Source of the DNA: Bradyrhizobium sp. Ash2021 | GTDB taxonomy: Bacteria > Pseudomonadota > Alphaproteobacteria > Rhizobiales > Xanthobacteraceae | NCBI RefSeq assembly: GCF_031202265.1 | Contig: NZ_CP100604.1 | Coordinates: forward strand, 7,112,501-7,176,500 | DNA length: 64,000 nucleotides | Direction of reading: 5' to 3' | Shown: positions 1 through 10,106 of the stretch, piece after piece | Position numbering within the stretch: position 1 is the first letter of the stretch | How the letters are laid out: the number at the start of each line of letters is the position of its first letter | Program-made: the position numbers and the translations under genes | Notes under the pieces: model-generated | Database searches by the model: none | The model's input: the letters and a program-made list of their open reading frames with translations, nothing else | Told to the model about the DNA's origin: nothing

Positions 1-151
1 GGAAGCCATCCACTTCGAGATTGAAGAGCGCGGCTCCATGGTCGGCGCTGTCGAAGGCGTACGAGGCCGTCTGGTAGATCGGCACGGCGACGGCCTTGGT
101 GGTCGGCTCGACTTCGTAGCCGCCGTGGACGGCGAGAGTCTCTCTTCTCAT
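1..151 (-). CDS. MetY-like O-acetylhomoserine sulfhydrylase (5' part, cut by window edge)
   Basis: Only the first 50 codons are present; the gene runs off the left edge. The translation begins MRRETLAVHGG and continues with PIYQTASYAF and HGAALFNLEVDGF. These are hallmark N-terminal blocks of the PLP-dependent Cys/Met metabolism family, closest to O-acetylhomoserine aminocarboxypropyltransferase. Known members replace the acetyl group with sulfide or methanethiol; this copy's substrate cannot be told. A GAGGGG sequence lies about 9 nt before the ATG. It is on the same strand as, and 83 nt downstream of, the amino acid:[carrier protein] ligase gene, so it could belong to that operon. Confidence 0.8.
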   Translation of the reverse strand, partial: MRRETLAVHGGYEVEPTTKAVAVPIYQTASYAFDSADHGAALFNLEVDGF

Positions 152-234
152 GGAAGCCGGCCCCTCGGCTCTTCGGTCCCGGGCGACCTCTGGATGTCCT
201 TGGCGCATCGAAGTTCCTCGAATGCTCACGCCGT

Positions 235-1215
235 CTACCGGTCGTCCCGCGGGAAGCCGAGCAGGTCCCGCACTGCGGTCGGCCACCTGGCGACGTCTCT
301 GCCGTGGGTATGGAACATGGCGACGGCGAGACGGTCCATTCCGAAGGCCACGCAAGCGGTATGGGCCGGCTCACCGGCCGCGTCCGCAATGCCCCAGGCG
401 GTGCCGAAGTGATCGCGGTGGTAGTTGAAGCTCATGCATGCGGTCGGTTGCTCCTCGGAGCGCAGAGGGACCAGCAACTCGAATTTCAGCGACTGCTGCT
501 TTTGGCTCACCGCCATCATCTGGCCGACCCGGCCGAAGAACGGATCGCTGGCGTAGTCGACCCTGAAGGTCAGCCCGAGATCGCGCGCGATCTCCTGAGC
601 GAGCACCATCCAGCGCTCCCGGAACGCCGAGACGTGGTCCGGGCTGCCGATGCAGACGTATTCGCGCATCCTGAAGGACTGCAGCCGGTCGAGATGGCGC
701 GAGGGCTCGCGACGGAAGCAATCGGCGGCCACGTCGAAGCACCAGCCGCTAGCCGGCACGGAACCGCGGCTCGCCGCGATCGGATAGACCGGATAGCAGG
801 CGGCCGGCGACAGCACGAGGTCGGCCGGTGAAAGTGACAGGGTCCAGTCGCCGCCGGCATCGAAGCAGCTGACCGCCGCATCGATCTCGCTTTCCGTGCC
901 GTGCAGGCCGCAGACGCAGCCGAGCAGGTTCGGAAAGCTCTTCAGATAGCCCGACCTCTCAAGCTGCGTGCGGTTCATGACGGGGGGGAAGCGCAGCACC
1001 TCGGTGTCCACTTCGCGATGCCGCGTGATCAGCGCTGCAAGCCGCTCCACGACGTCTTCATAGAGCGCGGTGCGGCCATAGACCCCCGGAGAGCCCATCT
1101 TTTGGAACAGCACATCGGCAAGATAGTCCAGCGGATCGGCCCGAGGCTGAGCGGGTTCCGAAGGTGCAAACATGGCCACGTTCATATCAAGCCCCATTTC
1201 CTTCGAGGAGAACAT
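235..1215 (-). CDS. Amino acid:[carrier protein] ligase (class II seryl-tRNA synthetase homolog, Bll0957-like)
   Basis: 326 residues. This is a stripped class II synthetase core without a tRNA-binding domain. In the characterised Bradyrhizobium family such enzymes form aminoacyl-AMP from a small amino acid (glycine or alanine) and transfer it to the phosphopantetheine of a carrier protein. A motif 2-like segment (CFRREP ... FRMREYV, about 166-187) and a motif 3-like segment (FGMDRL, about 291-296) are visible. Cys140, Glu185 and Cys288 fit the zinc ligands I recall for Bll0957 (Cys131, Glu176, Cys279), all offset by nine. The ATG overlaps the upstream dehydrogenase stop by one base (TGATG), so the two are translationally coupled. 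Internal starts at Met7 or Met11 are possible. The acceptor is probably one of the two carrier proteins encoded just across the divergent promoter. Confidence 0.88.
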   Translation of the reverse strand: MFSSKEMGLDMNVAMFAPSEPAQPRADPLDYLADVLFQKMGSPGVYGRTALYEDVVERLAALITRHREVDTEVLRFPPVMNRTQLERSGYLKSFPNLLGCVCGLHGTESEIDAAVSCFDAGGDWTLSLSPADLVLSPAACYPVYPIAASRGSVPASGWCFDVAADCFRREPSRHLDRLQSFRMREYVCIGSPDHVSAFRERWMVLAQEIARDLGLTFRVDYASDPFFGRVGQMMAVSQKQQSLKFELLVPLRSEEQPTACMSFNYHRDHFGTAWGIADAAGEPAHTACVAFGMDRLAVAMFHTHGRDVARWPTAVRDLLGFPRDDR

Positions 1216-2441
1216 CAATCGCGCAGGGACGCCGGGACGGCGCTCATCAGCGTGGCGGCACCCATGCTGGCAAGGATGCGGTCGTTGTTGATCATGATCG
1301 GAGCCGAAAGCACGTCGCGGAGGTGGCGGCCGACGCTGACGTCGGTGTCGTTGCGGTAGCCGGACAGGCCGCAGGCGCGCATCGCGTGCATGACGGCCGC
1401 GACCGCGAGTTCGGAGGCCTCCACCTTGAGAAGGTTGATCGAGGACTGGAAGTCGACGGACGAGAGCGCGCGCTCGTCCCGTTCACGGGCAGCAAAGGAC
1501 TCGGTGTTCACGGCGATGATGGCGCGCAGTTTCGCCAGCGTCATCCTGGCGGCGGTGAAATGCGCCGCGCCGGGAGGCATATTGCCGCCGGACCCGCGGG
1601 CGGCCTTGCGGATGAAGAGCTGCGCCCGGTCCACCGCCGCGGCCGCGATTCCCGCCCAGACCGACGACCAGCACAGATGCGCGACGGGCGTCATCGTCTG
1701 CGCATGGATCCTTTCGTATGCCACGGGGAATATCTGTTCCGCGGAGCCCTTGAAATTCAGCTTGAAGCCGGCGCTGCAGGTCCCACGCATGCCGAGCGTC
1801 TCCCATGCGAGAGTTTGCTCCAACGTGTAGTCGTCCCGGGTGATGGCCAACATCACCTGATCGGATCCGGCGGCGTCGTCGGCGCGGCGGGCGATGGTGA
1901 CGATGCCGTCCGCCTCGGCGCCGTAGGAAATCACCGTCGCGTCGCGCTCCAGCGAGATCTCGGCGCCCTCGCGCTCCACCGCGGCCGAGCTGAAGCGTAT
2001 GTTTCCGCCGTTCTGGCCTTCCGTGGTCGAAGACGCCAAGAGCAGCTGTTCGGCCGCCACGCGGCGCATGAGCCTTTCGTGCCAGCCGCTGCCTGCGCCG
2101 TGGCGGATCAGACACGCGATCTTGGTCTGATGCATCGCGAAGATCATCCCGGCCGAGGCGCAGGCGCGGCCGAGCGCGTAGCACATGTCGGCCACCTCGG
2201 AAATCGAAGCGCCGTCGCCACCGAACTCGATCGGGATCTGGGCGCCCAAAAGCCTCTCCTTGCGCGCCGCGTCGATGGCCTTCAGCGGGAAGCGCGCCTC
2301 GCGGTCGACCGCTTCGGCCTCCGTCGCCGCGGCCTCCGCGACGGCGGCCGCCCGTTCCCGGAACGAGGCGCGGTCGGGAGAGAATGCTGCTCGGCTGCTT
2401 TCGGGGGCGAAGCTGCGGAATTGGACTTCCTGCACGTTCAT
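1215..2441 (-). CDS. Acyl-CoA dehydrogenase family flavoprotein
   Basis: 408 residues from the ATG preceded by GGGAGG about 9 nt upstream; a longer reading frame to 2564 lacks this support. The fold is acyl-CoA dehydrogenase: an N-terminal helical part with LGAQIPIEFGG, a middle part with STTEGQNGGN, and a C-terminal helical part ending in a DVSVGRHLRDVLSAPIMINN segment typical of the flavin-binding end. Known members oxidise acyl-CoA or acyl-S-carrier protein at the alpha-beta bond using FAD. In carrier-protein clusters relatives oxidise aminoacyl-S-carrier proteins, so I infer, without proof, that the substrate is tethered to one of the neighbouring carrier proteins. First gene of the minus-strand arm, coupled to the ligase. 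Confidence 0.85.
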   Translation of the reverse strand: MNVQEVQFRSFAPESSRAAFSPDRASFRERAAAVAEAAATEAEAVDREARFPLKAIDAARKERLLGAQIPIEFGGDGASISEVADMCYALGRACASAGMIFAMHQTKIACLIRHGAGSGWHERLMRRVAAEQLLLASSTTEGQNGGNIRFSSAAVEREGAEISLERDATVISYGAEADGIVTIARRADDAAGSDQVMLAITRDDYTLEQTLAWETLGMRGTCSAGFKLNFKGSAEQIFPVAYERIHAQTMTPVAHLCWSSVWAGIAAAAVDRAQLFIRKAARGSGGNMPPGAAHFTAARMTLAKLRAIIAVNTESFAARERDERALSSVDFQSSINLLKVEASELAVAAVMHAMRACGLSGYRNDTDVSVGRHLRDVLSAPIMINNDRILASMGAATLMSAVPASLRD

Positions 2442-2576
2442 GGCCCAAAACCTCCCGTTTGATGGTCGGACGACCCGAACCGCGTGGACATGAATTCCAC
2501 TCGAGTTCGAGGGTGGCAATCTAACCAACCGCACTCGAGGAGTCGGCGGCGCAGAAGTGAGCACGGGTGCCCTTGC

Positions 2577-2621
2577 GAGGTACCTCCGAAGTAGAACTAC
2601 TGACCTGAGCTGCAGTCAGGT
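2577..2621. promoter_or_regulatory. Inverted repeats in the divergent promoter region of the carrier-protein cluster
   Basis: The 231-bp gap between the divergent dehydrogenase and carrier protein genes must hold both promoters. It contains a perfect palindrome GAGGTACCTC (2577-2586) and, 16 bp further, an inverted repeat ACCTGA-N7-TCAGGT (2603-2608 and 2616-2621). Both use an ACCT/AGGT half-site. The second reads ACCTG-N9-CAGGT, close to but one base shorter than the 20-bp LuxR-type boxes of quorum-sensing promoters. A regulator site is plausible; which regulator binds is unknown. Confidence 0.4.
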
Positions 2622-2672
2622 ATCGTCACGTCGATTATGATCTGTCACCTCATCGCGACGAGTGGAGTTGAA

Positions 2673-2942
2673 ATGCTAGACCTTGCCGCCAGCGTCCAAG
2701 ACCGTGTTCTTTCCGTCGTCAGGATCGTCCTCCAGGAGAACGCGATCATCGCCGATGTCCACCCGGAATCCCGGCTGGTAGATATCGGACTGGACTCGAT
2801 GGATATGGTCGCGCTGATGCTCAAGGTCGAAGCCGAGTTCGATCTCACCCTTCCCCAGCCCGAGATCACGCCAGAGAACTTCCAATCGGTGAAGACAATG
2901 GAGCTGATGATCCTCAACCAGCTCGGACCCGGACCGGGATGA
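2673..2942 (+). CDS. Carrier protein 1 (phosphopantetheine-binding ACP-like)
   Basis: 89 residues of a free-standing four-helix carrier protein. The attachment motif IGLDSMDMV puts the phosphopantetheine serine at about residue 42. I start at the ATG at 2673, which follows a GGAG about 7 nt upstream; an in-frame start at 2637 lacks such a signal. It is the first gene of the plus-strand arm, directly opposite the amino acid ligase operon, and is the likeliest acceptor of the activated amino acid. A free-standing carrier of this size matches the partners known for Bll0957-type ligases. It is not the housekeeping AcpP, judging by context and sequence. Confidence 0.88.
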   Translation: MLDLAASVQDRVLSVVRIVLQENAIIADVHPESRLVDIGLDSMDMVALMLKVEAEFDLTLPQPEITPENFQSVKTMELMILNQLGPGPG

Positions 2943-3110
2943 ACCGACTTGAACAGACATGCGTCTTCGGAAAGCGAGCGAAACCGGATCGACAATGATC
3001 GCAAGGTCGCGCCCGGTCCGGCTCGCCGCTTTCCCCCTTCCGCCGCAGCCTTATCGCCTCGGGAGCTGGTCGGCGCGGACATCGATCGAAATCATCTGCA
3101 TGGTCAGATC

Positions 3111-4928
3111 ATGAAAGCAGGCGTGATTCAGCGGGCGACCGGAAGTAGCGACCCGCGATGCAGACCCTCCGCCGCCAAAGCCTGGCTGAAGGCCATCGAA
3201 CTGACCTCGCGGATCGAGGCCGAGCCGCAACGGCTATTCGCCGACGTCGTGGAAGAATGGGCGAAACGGCAGCCCGGACGCCCCGCATTGTGCTCGGACC
3301 GCCAATCCTTCACCTACGGGGAGTTCAGCGCCCGGATCAGCCAATATGCGCGTTGGGCGCGGGACCTGGGCGTCCGTACCGGCTGCACCGTCTGCCTGCT
3401 GATGCCGAACCGGCCGGACTACGTTGCCTGCTGGCTCGGCATCAGCAGCGTTGGCGGCACGGTGGCGCTGATCAATACCCGGCTGGTCGGGCAGTCCCTC
3501 GCTCACTGCATCGACGTTGCGTGTGCCGACCACCTCGTTCTTGCCGTCGATTGCGTGGATGCGTTCGAAACCGCACGTCCGCACCTGGGTCGCGTGCCCC
3601 AAATCTGGAGACTCGGTCCCGGCAGCGCCGGCGCCGATCTGGATGCGGCGCTCGCCGCCGCGGATCCGCGCCCGCTGTCCTCCGCCGAGCGCGGCGACGT
3701 CACGATCGATGGACGCGCCTTACTCATCTACACCTCGGGCACCACGGGGCTGCCGAAGGCGGTAAACGTCAGTCATCGCCGCATCCTCAGCTGGGGCGGA
3801 TGGTTTGCCGGGCTGACAGACGCTTCCGTCCACGACCGTCTTTACGATTGTCTTCCGCTCCATCATTCAGTGGGCGGTGTCGTCGCGCCTTGCAGCATGC
3901 TCCGCGCCGGCGGTTCAGTGGTGATCGCGGAGAAATTCTCCGCGGAAGACTTCTGGGACGACATCATGTATTTCGACTGCACTATCTTCCAATATATCGG
4001 TGAACTCTGCCGCTACCTTCTGAACGCGCCGGCGTCCGGGCTGGAGGTCGTACACGGGCTGCGGCTGGCCGTCGGCAACGGATTGCGCGGCGACATCTGG
4101 GAGGCGTTCGCGAAGCGGTTCGCGATTCCGCAGATCCTCGAATTCTACGCCGCGACAGAAGGTAATTTTTCACTATTCAACTTCGAAGGAAAACCCGGCG
4201 CGATCGGCCGTATCCCGCCGCTGCTGGCGCATCGCTTTCCCGCCTCGATCGTGAAGGTCGATGCAGAGCGCGGCAGCCCGGTCCGCGGCGACGACGGGCT
4301 CTGTATCGCCTGCACCCACGGCGAGGTCGGCGAGGCGATCGGGCGCATCGGCACCGCCGATCGGGGCGGCGGCCCTTTCGAGGGCTACACGGACCCGGCC
4401 GAGACCGAGAAGAAGATCCTGCGCGACGTATTTGCCGAAGGCGATGCCTGGTTCCGGACCGGCGATCTGATGCTGCGCGACGAGCAGGGCTATTTCCATT
4501 TCGTCGACCGGATCGGCGAAACCTTCCGCTGGAAGGGCGAGAACGTCGCGACCAGCGAGGTGAACGACGCGATCAGGGACTGCCCCGGCGTTCTCGACGC
4601 CTCGACCTACGGGGTCGCGGTCCCCGGCGCCGACGGTCGCGCCGGCATGGCGGCTTTGGTGGTGGACCAAGGGTTCGATTTCAGAATCTTCGCGGAACTG
4701 CTGTCGCGCCGGCTCCCGGTCTATGCGCTTCCGATCTTCGTCAGGTTATGCCGGGCGCTCGACGCCACCGAGACCTTCAAGCAGAATAAGCAGCGGCTGA
4801 TCCGCGAGGGATTCGATCCCTCGGTCGTGGGCGACCCGCTGTTCCTGCGCGATCCGGCGACCAGCGACTATCGTCCGATCGACCGGGCCGTCTACGCGCG
4901 CATCGTGGAGGGCGGAATCAGACTCTAG
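3111..4928 (+). CDS. AMP-forming acyl ligase, FadD/FATP (very-long-chain acyl-CoA synthetase) type
   Basis: 605 residues from the ATG at 3111. The frame is open back to a TTG at 2949, but the extra residues look low-complexity and neither start has a strong ribosome site. The AMP-binding P-loop is YTSGTTGLPKA (near residue 206), followed by EFYAATEGN (near 345) and GETFRWKGENVAT (near 470). The last motif is diagnostic of the FATP/very-long-chain subgroup of the ANL superfamily. It should adenylate a carboxylic acid and pass it to CoA or to a carrier protein. Lying between two carrier protein genes, it may load an acyl starter onto one of them; that is inference. Confidence 0.85.
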   Translation: MKAGVIQRATGSSDPRCRPSAAKAWLKAIELTSRIEAEPQRLFADVVEEWAKRQPGRPALCSDRQSFTYGEFSARISQYARWARDLGVRTGCTVCLLMPNRPDYVACWLGISSVGGTVALINTRLVGQSLAHCIDVACADHLVLAVDCVDAFETARPHLGRVPQIWRLGPGSAGADLDAALAAADPRPLSSAERGDVTIDGRALLIYTSGTTGLPKAVNVSHRRILSWGGWFAGLTDASVHDRLYDCLPLHHSVGGVVAPCSMLRAGGSVVIAEKFSAEDFWDDIMYFDCTIFQYIGELCRYLLNAPASGLEVVHGLRLAVGNGLRGDIWEAFAKRFAIPQILEFYAATEGNFSLFNFEGKPGAIGRIPPLLAHRFPASIVKVDAERGSPVRGDDGLCIACTHGEVGEAIGRIGTADRGGGPFEGYTDPAETEKKILRDVFAEGDAWFRTGDLMLRDEQGYFHFVDRIGETFRWKGENVATSEVNDAIRDCPGVLDASTYGVAVPGADGRAGMAALVVDQGFDFRIFAELLSRRLPVYALPIFVRLCRALDATETFKQNKQRLIREGFDPSVVGDPLFLRDPATSDYRPIDRAVYARIVEGGIRL

Positions 4929-4970
4929 CATCGGCTCGAAAAGCCACTTTCTTGAGAGATGAGGTGTCCC

Positions 4971-5216
4971 ATGTCGGTAAGGTCGAGGATTTTCTCGGCG
5001 ATGCAGCGGATCGCTGAAGAGCAGAAGGTCACGCTTCCGCCGCTCCACGACGATCTGTCGCTGCACGAAACCGGGTTCGACTCGCTGGCATTCGCAATCC
5101 TCGTCGCGCGGCTGGAGGACGATCTCGGCGTTGATCCGTTCACCGTCGCGGAGGACGCCGCCTTCCCGTCGACCGTCGGCGAATTCGTCAGAGCATACGA
5201 GAATGTCCCCGCCTGA
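4971..5216 (+). CDS. Carrier protein 2 (phosphopantetheine-binding ACP-like)
   Basis: 81 residues with the attachment motif TGFDSLAFA, serine at about 38, and an acidic helix following it. The ATG at 4971 has GAGG 7 nt upstream, so I prefer it over the upstream in-frame start at 4959. It differs clearly from carrier protein 1 (GFDSLA against GLDSMD), which suggests the two carry different intermediates. Its last 14 nt overlap the start of the next ligase, a sign of translational coupling and perhaps of a dedicated ligase-carrier pair. Confidence 0.87.
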   Translation: MSVRSRIFSAMQRIAEEQKVTLPPLHDDLSLHETGFDSLAFAILVARLEDDLGVDPFTVAEDAAFPSTVGEFVRAYENVPA

Positions 5217-6588
5217 AATCTTCGCGCTGCGCGAATATCTCGGCCCGGAGCTGAAGGGCCGCACGATTTCCGATGCCCGGCACGGCGTATCGCTGACCGA
5301 CATTCTCCGGCACAGCTGCCTGATCGGCAGATCCCGCGAGCTGTCCGGCCGCTCGGTGCTGCTTGCGACATCGGGACAGCTGCTGTCCGCGCTCGCGATG
5401 ATCGAGCTCGACGGCATCGCCCGCCGCATGCTGCTGTGCCCGCCCGACTTCGATCCGGATCGCATCCAGGCCCTGCTTGCGGATGCCGAGATCGACGCCA
5501 TCGTCACCGATCAGTCGCTGCACCGATACGATGCTGGCGCGTACCTGGTTGTCGGCGCCGGCCTGCCCGAACGGGCGGCCGAGGGATGGAAGACCGAACG
5601 CGCGACCGAGTGGCTGATGCTGACCTCGGGGACGTCCGGGCTGCCGAAGATCGTCGGACATACGCTCGATGGGCTGGCCGGCGCGATCATCGCCGAGGGG
5701 GCTGCGCGCCACCCGAACGCGACCTGGGCGACGTTCTACGACATCCGCCGCTACGGCGGCCTGCAGATATTGCTGCGCGCCGTGATCGGCGGCGGATCGA
5801 TCGTGCTGTCGGAGCCCGGGGAAGCCATCGCGGACCACGTGGCACGGCTGCGGGCAGGCGGCGTCACCCACATCTCCGGGACGCCGTCGCACTGGCGCAA
5901 GCTCCTGATGAGCGGTGCGGCCGCGAACTTCTCGCCGCGCTATGTCCGCCTGTCCGGTGAAATCGCCGACCAGGCGGTGCTCGACGGCCTTGCCCGGGCG
6001 TTTCCGCATGCGTCGATCGGCCATGCCTATGCTTCAACCGAGGCCGGCGTCGGTTTCGCGGTGGACGACGGGCGCGAGGGTTTTCCCGCCGACCTGATCG
6101 GGCGGAACCGCGACGGCGTCGAGATGAAGGTCGTCGACGGTTCACTCCGGATCCGCTCCCACCGCACGGCGCGCGCCTATATCGGCGCCAATGCGCCCCC
6201 GCTCGCCGATGCCGAAGGCTTCGTCGACACCGGCGACATGATCGAGCTGCGCGGCGAGCGCTACCACTTCGTCGGCCGGCGCGGCGGCATCATCAACATC
6301 GGCGGGCTGAAGGTCCATCCCGAGGAGATCGAGGCCGTGATCAACCGGCACGAGTCCGTGCGGATGTCGCGCGCGCGGTCGCGCAGGAGCCCGATCACCG
6401 GCGCCATCGTGATCGCCGACGTCGTCCTCGCCGACGGCACCGATGCGGGTCGCCACGAGACGATCCGCACGGAAATTCTCGGCCGGTGCAAGGACTCGCT
6501 GGCGGCGCACAAGGTGCCTGCGGTGATCCGCTTCGTCGAGCGGCTCGACGTCACGGAAGCCGGGAAACTGGTGCGCGCCGATGCGTAA
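5203..6588 (+). CDS. AMP-dependent synthetase/ligase (ANL superfamily), second copy in the cluster
   Basis: 461 residues from the ATG inside the 3' end of carrier protein 2; the longer frame from 5131 is mostly a shadow of that gene. The P-loop LTSGTSGLPK (near residue 140), HAYASTEAGVGF, TGDMIELRGERYHFVGRR (ATPase and hinge) and a C-terminal EAGKLVRADA with the expected catalytic lysine are all present. At under 470 residues it is short for an acyl-CoA synthetase and lacks any fused carrier or condensation domain. It resembles stand-alone adenylation enzymes that load separate carrier proteins. It overlaps the next gene by 8 nt. Substrate unknown. Confidence 0.82.
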   Translation: MSPPEIFALREYLGPELKGRTISDARHGVSLTDILRHSCLIGRSRELSGRSVLLATSGQLLSALAMIELDGIARRMLLCPPDFDPDRIQALLADAEIDAIVTDQSLHRYDAGAYLVVGAGLPERAAEGWKTERATEWLMLTSGTSGLPKIVGHTLDGLAGAIIAEGAARHPNATWATFYDIRRYGGLQILLRAVIGGGSIVLSEPGEAIADHVARLRAGGVTHISGTPSHWRKLLMSGAAANFSPRYVRLSGEIADQAVLDGLARAFPHASIGHAYASTEAGVGFAVDDGREGFPADLIGRNRDGVEMKVVDGSLRIRSHRTARAYIGANAPPLADAEGFVDTGDMIELRGERYHFVGRRGGIINIGGLKVHPEEIEAVINRHESVRMSRARSRRSPITGAIVIADVVLADGTDAGRHETIRTEILGRCKDSLAAHKVPAVIRFVERLDVTEAGKLVRADA

Positions 6589-7309
6589 CGTCCTCGTCAC
6601 CGGCGGCAGCCGTGGCATCGGGCTTGCGATTACGCGCAGGCTCGCCGCATCCGGCGACTACAGCGTGATCGCGGTCGCGCGCCGCGAGAGCGAGGATCTG
6701 GGACACGCCATCCGCGAAACGGGAGCGGACCGCCTTCACTTCAGGGCGTTTGATCTTGGCCGGACCGACGAGATTCCCGCCTTCGTGAAGGAGCTGCGCG
6801 ACGGCTTCGGCGCGATCCACGGCCTCGTCAACAATGCCGGGATCGGCACCGAGGGGCTGCTGGCCACCATGCGCAATTCCGAGATCGAGGCGTTGATCCG
6901 TCTGAACGTGCTGTCGCCGATCGTTCTGACCAAATACGTGGTGCGCCACATGATGGCCGACGGCGCCGGGCGCATCGTCAACATCTCCTCCATCATCGCC
7001 TCGACCGGCTACAACGGCCTCTCCGTCTATGCCGCGTCCAAGGCCGCGGCCGCCGGCTTCACCCGTTCGCTGGCCCGCGAAGTTGGCACGCTCGGCATCA
7101 CCGTGAATGCGATCGCCCCCGGCTTCGTCGACACCGAATTGACCAGGTCCTTAGACGACGACGGCCGCCGGCGCATCGCCGGTCGCAGCGCGTTGCGCCG
7201 CCTGCCCGAGGCCGACGACATCGCTTCCATGGTCGAGTATCTCATGGGCGAAGGCGGCCGGAACATCACCGGCACGGTGCTGACGGTGGACGCCGGCAAC
7301 ACCGCATGA
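6581..7309 (+). CDS. Short-chain dehydrogenase/reductase, FabG (3-oxoacyl-ACP reductase) type
   Basis: 242 residues. The Rossmann motif TGGSRGIG (7-14), NNAG, a catalytic serine region (VNISSI) and YAASK catalytic Tyr/Lys pair are all present. The C-terminus GTVLTVDAGNTA is typical of FabG-like enzymes. Most relatives reduce 3-oxoacyl chains on ACP using NADPH. It overlaps the preceding ligase by 8 nt and is the last gene of the plus arm. In context it may reduce a carrier-bound keto intermediate made by this cluster. No condensing enzyme or thioesterase is encoded nearby, so the chain-building step is missing or supplied elsewhere. Confidence 0.85.
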   Translation: MRNVLVTGGSRGIGLAITRRLAASGDYSVIAVARRESEDLGHAIRETGADRLHFRAFDLGRTDEIPAFVKELRDGFGAIHGLVNNAGIGTEGLLATMRNSEIEALIRLNVLSPIVLTKYVVRHMMADGAGRIVNISSIIASTGYNGLSVYAASKAAAAGFTRSLAREVGTLGITVNAIAPGFVDTELTRSLDDDGRRRIAGRSALRRLPEADDIASMVEYLMGEGGRNITGTVLTVDAGNTA

Positions 7310-8406: not shown

Positions 8407-9222
8407 TCAGTGCGGTTTGCTTCCGGTTGGTCGTAATGGTCCTTCAATTTGCTCGATCGCAGAGTTCACCCCCACTGGCGCTGGCAGCTGGCTACCCGCG
8501 CCGGCTGCCGGTGGCGGCGGGTTGGTGCTGGTTGTTCGTGTGAGCATCCCCCAAGTCGCCGCTTGTGTGCGATTGTGGACCCGCATCTTGCGAAGGATCG
8601 ACGCGACATGGCCCTTCACGGTGCCGTCGGTGATGTGAAATTTTCGCGCTATGGATTTGTTGGAATCGCCATCAACCAGACAGCGTAGAATCGTTTTTTC
8701 CCGTGGCGAAAGCTGCAGTGCAATCGCGTCCTGTGGCGTGGCGATGAGCGCCTCGCTGTTGACGACGCGTGGGCCAGCATTGTCCAGGGGCTCGCCTTCG
8801 GGACCCAGAACGAATGGCAGAAATGCCGCCGGGAGAACTGTTTCACCCATCATTACCAGTTCTATTGATTTGATGAATACTTCGGGTGTCATGACCTCGA
8901 CGAAATAGCCATTGGCGCCTGTCCGAAATGCTGAAACCACGTCTTCCAGCCGATAGCGATCGGCAACGATCGCGATTCGCCCGCCCGGGTTGCTGCGTCT
9001 TAAAAGTTCGATTTGGTCGGTCACTACGTCGAAATCATCACCAATATGGACAATGAGAAACAGCGGGTGGTGTGGTTGGACTTTGCTCCCAAGAAAGTCA
9101 TCGGCGCATGACACGGATGCTACGATGCGAAAATTTGCTGAACGGAGGATTCCAGCGACGCCGTCTCTAAGTAAACTACGATTTCCAACGAGGACGATTG
9201 CGAAAGAATGTCTCCGCCTCAT
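8407..9222 (-). CDS. LuxR/NarL-family response regulator with degenerate receiver domain
   Basis: 271 residues from the ATG preceded by GGGAG about 7 nt upstream. The N-terminal third has the alternating pattern of a receiver domain (FAIVLVGNRSLLRDG ... GANGYFVEV). The C-terminal half is a NarL-type helix-turn-helix (LSPREKTILRCLVDG; SIARKFHITDGTVKGHVASI). A proline-rich tail follows. The acidic pair after strand 1 is replaced (VGNRS), the phospho-acceptor position after strand 3 reads IVHIGDD instead of a loop with the usual Asp, and the lysine of strand 5 is replaced (GYFVEV). Classical phosphorylation therefore looks unlikely. No histidine kinase gene is adjacent. Targets unknown. Confidence 0.85.
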   Translation of the reverse strand: MRRRHSFAIVLVGNRSLLRDGVAGILRSANFRIVASVSCADDFLGSKVQPHHPLFLIVHIGDDFDVVTDQIELLRRSNPGGRIAIVADRYRLEDVVSAFRTGANGYFVEVMTPEVFIKSIELVMMGETVLPAAFLPFVLGPEGEPLDNAGPRVVNSEALIATPQDAIALQLSPREKTILRCLVDGDSNKSIARKFHITDGTVKGHVASILRKMRVHNRTQAATWGMLTRTTSTNPPPPAAGAGSQLPAPVGVNSAIEQIEGPLRPTGSKPH

Positions 9223-9429
9223 GTTGGCTCTCCCAACCTGCACACAACCAGAAGCTCGACGAGGCACTTGAGCTCCGACTCTCTCACTTGCAGATTTTTG
9301 GTGGCGCTAAGGACCCATCCGTCAGTAGAAGAATTGGAGTTTCGGATTCTTGAGTCAGTGAGACGCCCCTGAGCAGCAATGCACTTAGTGGTAATACGGT
9401 GGCGCCTGTCTTTCGTGAAAGTTCAATGA

Positions 9430-10030: not shown

Positions 10031-10106
10031 TGGTGGGCGCACCAGGGCTCGAACCTGGGACCCGATGATTAAGAGTCATCTGCTCTACCAACTGAGCTAT
10101 GCGCCC
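10031..10106 (-). tRNA. tRNA-Lys (anticodon CTT), CCA encoded
   Basis: 76 nt including the encoded CCA. The acceptor stem pairs GGGCGCA with TGCGCCC. The D arm contains AGCTCAGTTGGTAGAGC, the T arm contains GGTTCGAGCC, and the anticodon loop CTCTTAA gives anticodon CTT, reading AAG lysine codons. No integrase or duplicated tRNA end is visible next to it. Confidence 0.97.

Follow-up and report, generated by a model that had tools for sequence, protein, structure and literature searches.

Do the carrier proteins and activating enzymes encoded at one end of a 64,000-nucleotide stretch of Bradyrhizobium sp. Ash2021 (the window; G000:C1:7112501-7176500, part of a 9.7 Mb genome) form one biosynthetic pathway, and what might it make? 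A first-pass annotation had described eight genes in two divergent arms, all of which are indeed present as profile hits and open reading frames (ORFs) where it had placed them, including an amino acid:[carrier protein] ligase of the Bll0957 type. The system is real, coherent and larger than that annotation reported: the cluster runs on past the left end of the window for ca. 6 kb, where our reading of the neighbouring locus L009 (L-numbers denote fetched loci and G-numbers genomes) revealed MetA, a cytochrome P450, a protein that we call X, a branched-chain-type aminotransferase (BCAT) and a thiamine pyrophosphate (TPP) enzyme, so that the eight genes stand while the extent given for the cluster does not. 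We consider it evenly balanced whether these genes encode a conserved carrier-protein pathway to a small amino-acid-derived metabolite, with most of one compact copy lying inside the window. The genes and the region between the two arms are as follows:

151..1, minus strand: MetY, an O-acylhomoserine gamma-replacement (sulfhydrylase-type) pyridoxal phosphate (PLP) enzyme; first 50 codons only in the window
235-1218, minus strand: amino acid:[carrier protein] ligase, class II aminoacyl-tRNA synthetase (aaRS)-like (NF005479)
1215-2441, minus strand: flavoenzyme of the acyl-CoA dehydrogenase (ACAD) fold (PF02771/PF00441)
2442-2636, no strand: divergent promoter region of both arms, with a 74% repeat upstream of BCAT
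2637-2942, plus strand: carrier protein 1 (CP1; PF00550, 28.6 bits), phosphopantetheine serine codon at 2796
2949-4928 (ORF; likely ATG at 3111), plus strand: FATP-like acyl-CoA synthetase (NF006134, 740 bits, cut-off 625)
4959-5216, plus strand: carrier protein 2 (CP2; PF00550, 28.4 bits), phosphopantetheine serine codon at 5082
5203-6588 (ATG at 5203), plus strand: MenE-like stand-alone AMP ligase (PF00501 and PF13193), overlapping the end of CP2
6581-7309, plus strand: FabG-like short-chain reductase (SDR; PF00106/PF13561), overlapping the end of the MenE-like gene

The start of the window cuts the MetY gene, which is complete at L009:13378-14652, and both carriers keep the D-S motif at the attachment serine. 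A second, unlinked module at 6.33 Mb in the same genome (L010:10307-15479) encodes FATP, CP2, the MenE-like ligase and SDR at 67-85% identity and carries an X gene on the opposite strand between FATP and CP2.

Co-occurrence and arrangement of the gene set

We surveyed 117 Bradyrhizobium genomes for four markers, namely the aaRS-like ligase, the MenE-like ligase (E 1e-80 or better), X (E 1e-15 or better) and the system-type MetY, with the joint counts and those of control genes resting on presence lists transcribed by hand from single searches. The ligase occurs in 76 genomes (75 with the window type, and G010 with a 50% relative), X and the MenE-like ligase in 77 each, and the system subtype of MetY, at an identity of at least 71%, in exactly the 75 genomes with a window-type ligase; in the other 42, the best MetY match has E 1e-134 or weaker, with 48-50% identity among the matches listed. 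All four markers are found together in 74 genomes, none in 39 and some in just four: G023 has no MenE-like ligase other than a broken copy on its contig, G001, where the ligase region is degraded (L058), and G048 have just X and the MenE-like ligase, and G091, a genome 93% complete, holds only a piece of the MenE-like gene. For ligase and MetY, Fisher's test gives p = 9e-33, a value that ignores relatedness and serves as a description rather than a probability. The likewise patchy nodA, for which 63 of 71 matches were used after leaving out eight weak ones (G015, G032, G045, G048, G065, G097, G098 and G109), is not associated with the ligase (p = 0.57), and RuBisCO, present in 107 of the 117 genomes, is associated weakly (p = 0.004). 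The proposal of a single biosynthetic system that combines a Bll0957-type ligase with two carriers and several activating enzymes is supported, and the genes, whose independent occurrence in related genomes had been named as its refutation, are found together instead.

The set comes in two arrangements: a linked type with genes of all modules in one locus (18 loci, the window and L041-L057) and a core type, seen in many relatives, in which it is split into module A (CP1, ACAD-fold flavoenzyme, ligase and X), module B (FATP-like ligase, CP2, MenE-like ligase and SDR) and module C (MetY and MetA). Gene maps were drawn with a purpose-made codon-usage caller that overlooks genes of low GC content (the diverged X of L009 is an example), and five records had been fetched twice (L089 = L109, L042 = L183, L107 = L146, L105 = L179 and L103 = L160). 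All 18 linked loci contain the ligase, the ACAD-fold enzyme, CP1, CP2, the MenE-like ligase, MetY and MetA, accompanied by FATP in 17, SDR in 15, X and BCAT in 13 each and the TPP enzyme in seven. In core-type genomes, module C lies beside module A (e.g., L063-L067) or at a third site (L189-L196), and some genomes, such as G011, G017 and G022, harbor both types. In 17 genomes checked in which the three modules are separate, no two of them lie closer together than 0.43 Mb, with the chromosome length known for eight genomes and approximate for five more and plain coordinate differences used for the rest. Gene-neighbourhood methods would not link modules spread over three loci in this way, and the system would be an example of biosynthetic genes scattered around the chromosome instead of clustered.

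A search of a named genome collection with a query led by the ligase of an unrelated alphaproteobacterium listed the best 80 loci, of which 25 are assigned by title to organisms outside Bradyrhizobium, including Rhodopseudomonas, Methylocapsa, Caulobacter and Lichenibacterium. Among the 13 of these 25 that are longer than 20 kb, the ligase, the ACAD-fold enzyme and CP1 are present in all, CP2, the MenE-like ligase and SDR in 12 and FATP in 10, followed by X and an alpha/beta hydrolase (nine each), MetY and MetA (eight each), the TPP enzyme (six) and BCAT (three). Modules A, B and C share a single locus in Rhodopseudomonas and in the unrelated alphaproteobacterium, and gene order differs among the loci outside Bradyrhizobium, so that linkage is not one inherited arrangement. 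A locus titled Frankia sp. RB7 (L136) is of the core type with Bradyrhizobium gene order, and this entry is probably misnamed or mixed.

The enzymes and their predicted reactions

In the pathway that we propose, the aaRS-like ligase would activate a small amino acid and load it onto a carrier, as its homology supports, and the ACAD-fold flavoenzyme, devoid of the catalytic base, would oxidise the tethered aminoacyl group, either at its alpha carbon or at nitrogen. A carboxylic acid would be loaded onto CP2 by the MenE-like ligase, alone or together with the FATP-like one, and then reduced by the SDR, a dedicated MetA/MetY pair would provide a gamma-substituted homoserine unit, and X would move a carrier-bound acyl group onto an amine, joining the parts without a condensation domain. 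We infer each of these reactions, carrier loading included, next to what is observed, i.e., gene content, co-occurrence, folds and a missing catalytic residue.

The ligase is a member of NF005479 (474 bits, cut-off 357) and a close homologue of Bll0957 (586 bits against chain 3mey over residues 9-322, i.e., 314 residues), with 3mey and 4h2s among its listed structure matches. Its Cys141, Glu186 and Cys289 are invariant in all six aligned ligases and correspond to the zinc ligands Cys131, Glu176 and Cys279 of Bll0957. Bll0957 and Atu2573 were reportedly characterised as amino acid:[carrier protein] ligases by Mocibob et al. in 2010 and 2013, and glycine is the preferred substrate of Bll0957. 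Like these enzymes, the window ligase is encoded beside a carrier and a flavoenzyme, and CP1 is most likely the carrier that it loads because CP1 is its constant neighbour; the full partner set, the distribution over three loci and X are what is defined for the window system beyond them. A table in one review gives Ala, Gly and Ser for the ligase family (PMC9437257), and in a table on the phaR mutant of B. diazoefficiens at low oxygen, bll0957 and bll0958 are up at both transcript and protein level, each with a fold change of 3.0 (PMC10888616). In the literature that we searched, no pathway is assigned to Bll0957 despite solved structures and known activity, and the definition of partner genes that genomes retain or lose as a whole makes this question directly testable in the genetically tractable soybean symbiont.

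Dlt-type D-alanylation also relies on a stand-alone ligase and a carrier protein for an amino acid, with DltA being an ANL ligase in contrast to the aaRS-like enzyme of the window. Ligases of just 32-34% identity at L096:9044-13309 and L095:7565-10618 adjoin a carrier and an MBOAT protein, in L096 also a GNAT protein, and these sets possibly perform Dlt-like aminoacylation with an aaRS-like ligase. MBOAT proteins were seen only with these two ligases; BLAST detected no MBOAT (DltB-like) relative in the fetched window-type loci.

The first-pass annotation had the dehydrogenase simply oxidise the amino acid, which the flavoenzyme as we find it does not support. It has the ACAD fold (predicted model with pLDDT 82) but has no catalytic glutamate at either of the known positions, the C-terminal one (YEGT) and that in helix G, where PIMINNDR and TPVAH are found instead; seven homologues have it at neither position as well. 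In a control alignment of 25 ACAD sequences extracted from the same genome, of which seven or eight are wrong-frame picks, 11 show the glutamate at one position and six others at neither. Flavin oxidation of the tethered amino acid is likelier than desaturation. Comparing the fold of the model gave no separation between dehydrogenases and flavin monooxygenases (DszC, KijD3 and MsuC). The flavin dehydrogenases RedW/PigA (prolyl-carrier) and ColB1 (cysteinyl-carrier) likewise combine the ACAD fold with a carrier-tethered amino acid as substrate, but the RedW model scores just 31 bits against the window enzyme (cut-off 650), and the missing glutamates may be a second difference.

Both enzymes of module C belong to their expected families, MetY with 603.5 bits against TIGR01326 (cut-off 495.1; 669 bits against PRK06084 stay under the cut-off of 790) and MetA as a homoserine O-acyltransferase with 460 bits against NF003776 (cut-off 358), and they are separate from the housekeeping copies, with two MetY paralogues of 48-49% identity elsewhere in the window genome. 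The structure matches of MetY include sulfhydrylases at 493 bits and, below them, FUB7 at 427 bits, so that formation of a C-S, C-N or C-C bond would be admissible. FUB7 is an enzyme of fusaric acid biosynthesis with O-acetylhomoserine gamma-replacement chemistry. FUB7-type systems also combine a dedicated homoserine acyltransferase with a MetY-type enzyme, whereas the set described here is bacterial, carrier-protein based and free of a polyketide synthase; nothing relevant on FUB7-type chemistry in bacteria was found in the literature searched.

It had also been noted that the cluster has no condensing enzyme, which is correct inside the window but not for the whole set, as X, our candidate for the joining enzyme, is encoded outside of it. 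The X proteins of L009 (9825-10718; 297 residues, no Pfam match) and of the 6.33 Mb module (292 residues) belong to one family and are 40% identical, with the L009 copy being diverged (40-41% identity to the X family), and none of the members tried has a Pfam or NCBIfam match. The model of P0242, which is 96% identical to the L010 protein and aligns with 34 relatives at 40-91%, has a pLDDT of 90.8, shows the GNAT fold and matches tandem GNATs. GNATs usually have a glycine-rich CoA loop, in place of which most of 23 aligned X sequences have a conserved R-N-Y-A loop, and this would fit a carrier-bound donor. Separately, we note that the cytochrome P450 at L009:10778-12106 occupies the spot next to MetA that X holds in 13 of the 18 linked clusters and that a PLP decarboxylase (PF00282) adjoins CP1 at L168:464-1882, L169:5937-7355 and L184:6941-8377.

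More tentatively, and with a probability well short of even, the system may represent a class of thiotemplate pathway that has not been described and that does without condensation domains. In it, a tRNA-synthetase-derived ligase, two free carriers and a tandem-GNAT joining enzyme would combine an amino acid oxidised by the flavoenzyme, an acyl unit in reduced form and a C4 unit derived from homoserine into a new small metabolite that is widespread in Bradyrhizobium and other Alphaproteobacteria, and its modules would scatter along the chromosome and come together again as clusters. No description of a window-type gene set was found in the literature searched, which left most subscription journals outside.

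Competing explanations

Several observations weigh against the pathway that we propose. The co-occurrence counts in the genus are uncorrected for relatedness, BCAT and the TPP enzyme are accessory, and MetY could make plain homocysteine. X was uncalled in four of the 17 fetched linked loci (that of the window genome being present but diverged) and in four of the 13 non-Bradyrhizobium loci within the fetched stretch; in its stead, L169 and L184 encode a SnoaL protein and the PLP decarboxylase. Between MetA and FATP, L115 has a gene for a flavin reductase (4813-5349; PF01613), to which BLAST against all called proteins of the fetched loci found no other relative, with no genome-wide search made.

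Among the alternatives, it is unlikely, though worth weighing, that the set modifies the cell surface by ligating the oxidised amino acid to an envelope amino sugar via an Atu2574-type transferase, which we identified as a member of the DUF1839 (PF08893) family. A note in proof of 2010 predicted just this ligation of an amino acid to a sugar for the StRS-like/Atu2574 neighbourhood of the same ligase family (PMC2922099). In four loci (L060, L091, L092 and L094), the genes for carrier, ACAD-fold enzyme and ligase directly follow one another with DUF1839 alongside, three of these loci also having GH2 and a hydrolase, and one of the four comes from Bradyrhizobium genome G010 (L060:4326-12076, with all of these); X could moreover serve as a transferase, and distant ligase relatives sit with MBOAT proteins. 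The shared trio of carrier, redox enzyme and ligase is, however, accompanied in the window type by X, MetA/MetY and module B in place of DUF1839: in the fetched loci of the window type, that of the window included, BLAST detected relatives of neither DUF1839 nor GH2, G010 itself is without the window-type set, with no match for the MenE-like ligase or X and a MetY of only 50%, and sugar acylation needs neither MetA/MetY nor a second carrier module. It is rather unlikely that MetY follows a fusaric-acid-like route and joins a carbon nucleophile, i.e., an aldehyde or beta-ketoacyl group from module B, to O-acylhomoserine via a C-C bond to yield a cyclic imino acid. The dedicated MetA/MetY pair, the FUB7 structures among the MetY matches and a module B that could provide an activated, reduced acyl unit would suit this chemistry, but sulfhydrylases outscore FUB7 and no thioester or carboxylate reductase is among the proteins examined.

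A sulfur route appears improbable, in which MetA/MetY would make homocysteine or a thioether, either for use in the pathway or to supply methionine, and the flavoenzyme would be kin to sulfur-acquiring flavin monooxygenases. Genes for methylthioadenosine (MTA) phosphorylase and methylthioribose-1-phosphate (MTR-1-P) isomerase adjoin CP1 in 43 of 44 core-type loci (e.g., L061 and L070), and the flavoenzyme has NCBIfam matches to SfnB and DszC; but these Mtn genes are not in the maps of linked clusters or non-Bradyrhizobium loci, so that the core synteny may be plain inheritance, and the two NCBIfam matches score far below their cut-offs. We finally regard it as highly improbable that genes of primary metabolism (fatty acid, methionine and branched-chain) are neighbours here by chance: each family has housekeeping relatives, including the two MetY paralogues, but the genes co-occur across three unlinked loci and cluster again in other genera.

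Regulation and genomic surroundings

The promoter region that separates the arms (window 2417-2641) recurs with 74% identity at L009:9381-9611, upstream of the BCAT-TPP pair in the same genome, and this duplication suggests that the pair is probably co-regulated with the ligase arm. Two further features may bear on the control of the linked genes:

2577-2586, no strand: 10-base palindrome GAGGTACCTC, candidate operator; GGGGTACCCC in some relatives, with both sides changed together
8407-9267, minus strand: LuxR-type (GerE) regulator adjoining the cluster (PF00196)

The palindrome has a background frequency of 0.014 per kb and is found upstream of the ACAD gene in 18 of 20 linked-type loci (with one genome counted twice as L042/L183) and in none of 14 of the core type; no match to it lies upstream of core modules A, B or C, so that a site of this kind is not shared by the core loci. 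Two families of GerE/LuxR-type regulators, one of them including the window regulator, are each found at 11 linked-type loci, and our guess is that they bind the palindrome. To the right of the cluster lies a tRNA-Lys(CTT) at window 10031-10106; as the 3' end of this tRNA is not repeated anywhere else in the genome, integration of an island at this site was not borne out. The left side of the cluster is flanked by phage-type ERF and YqaJ genes.

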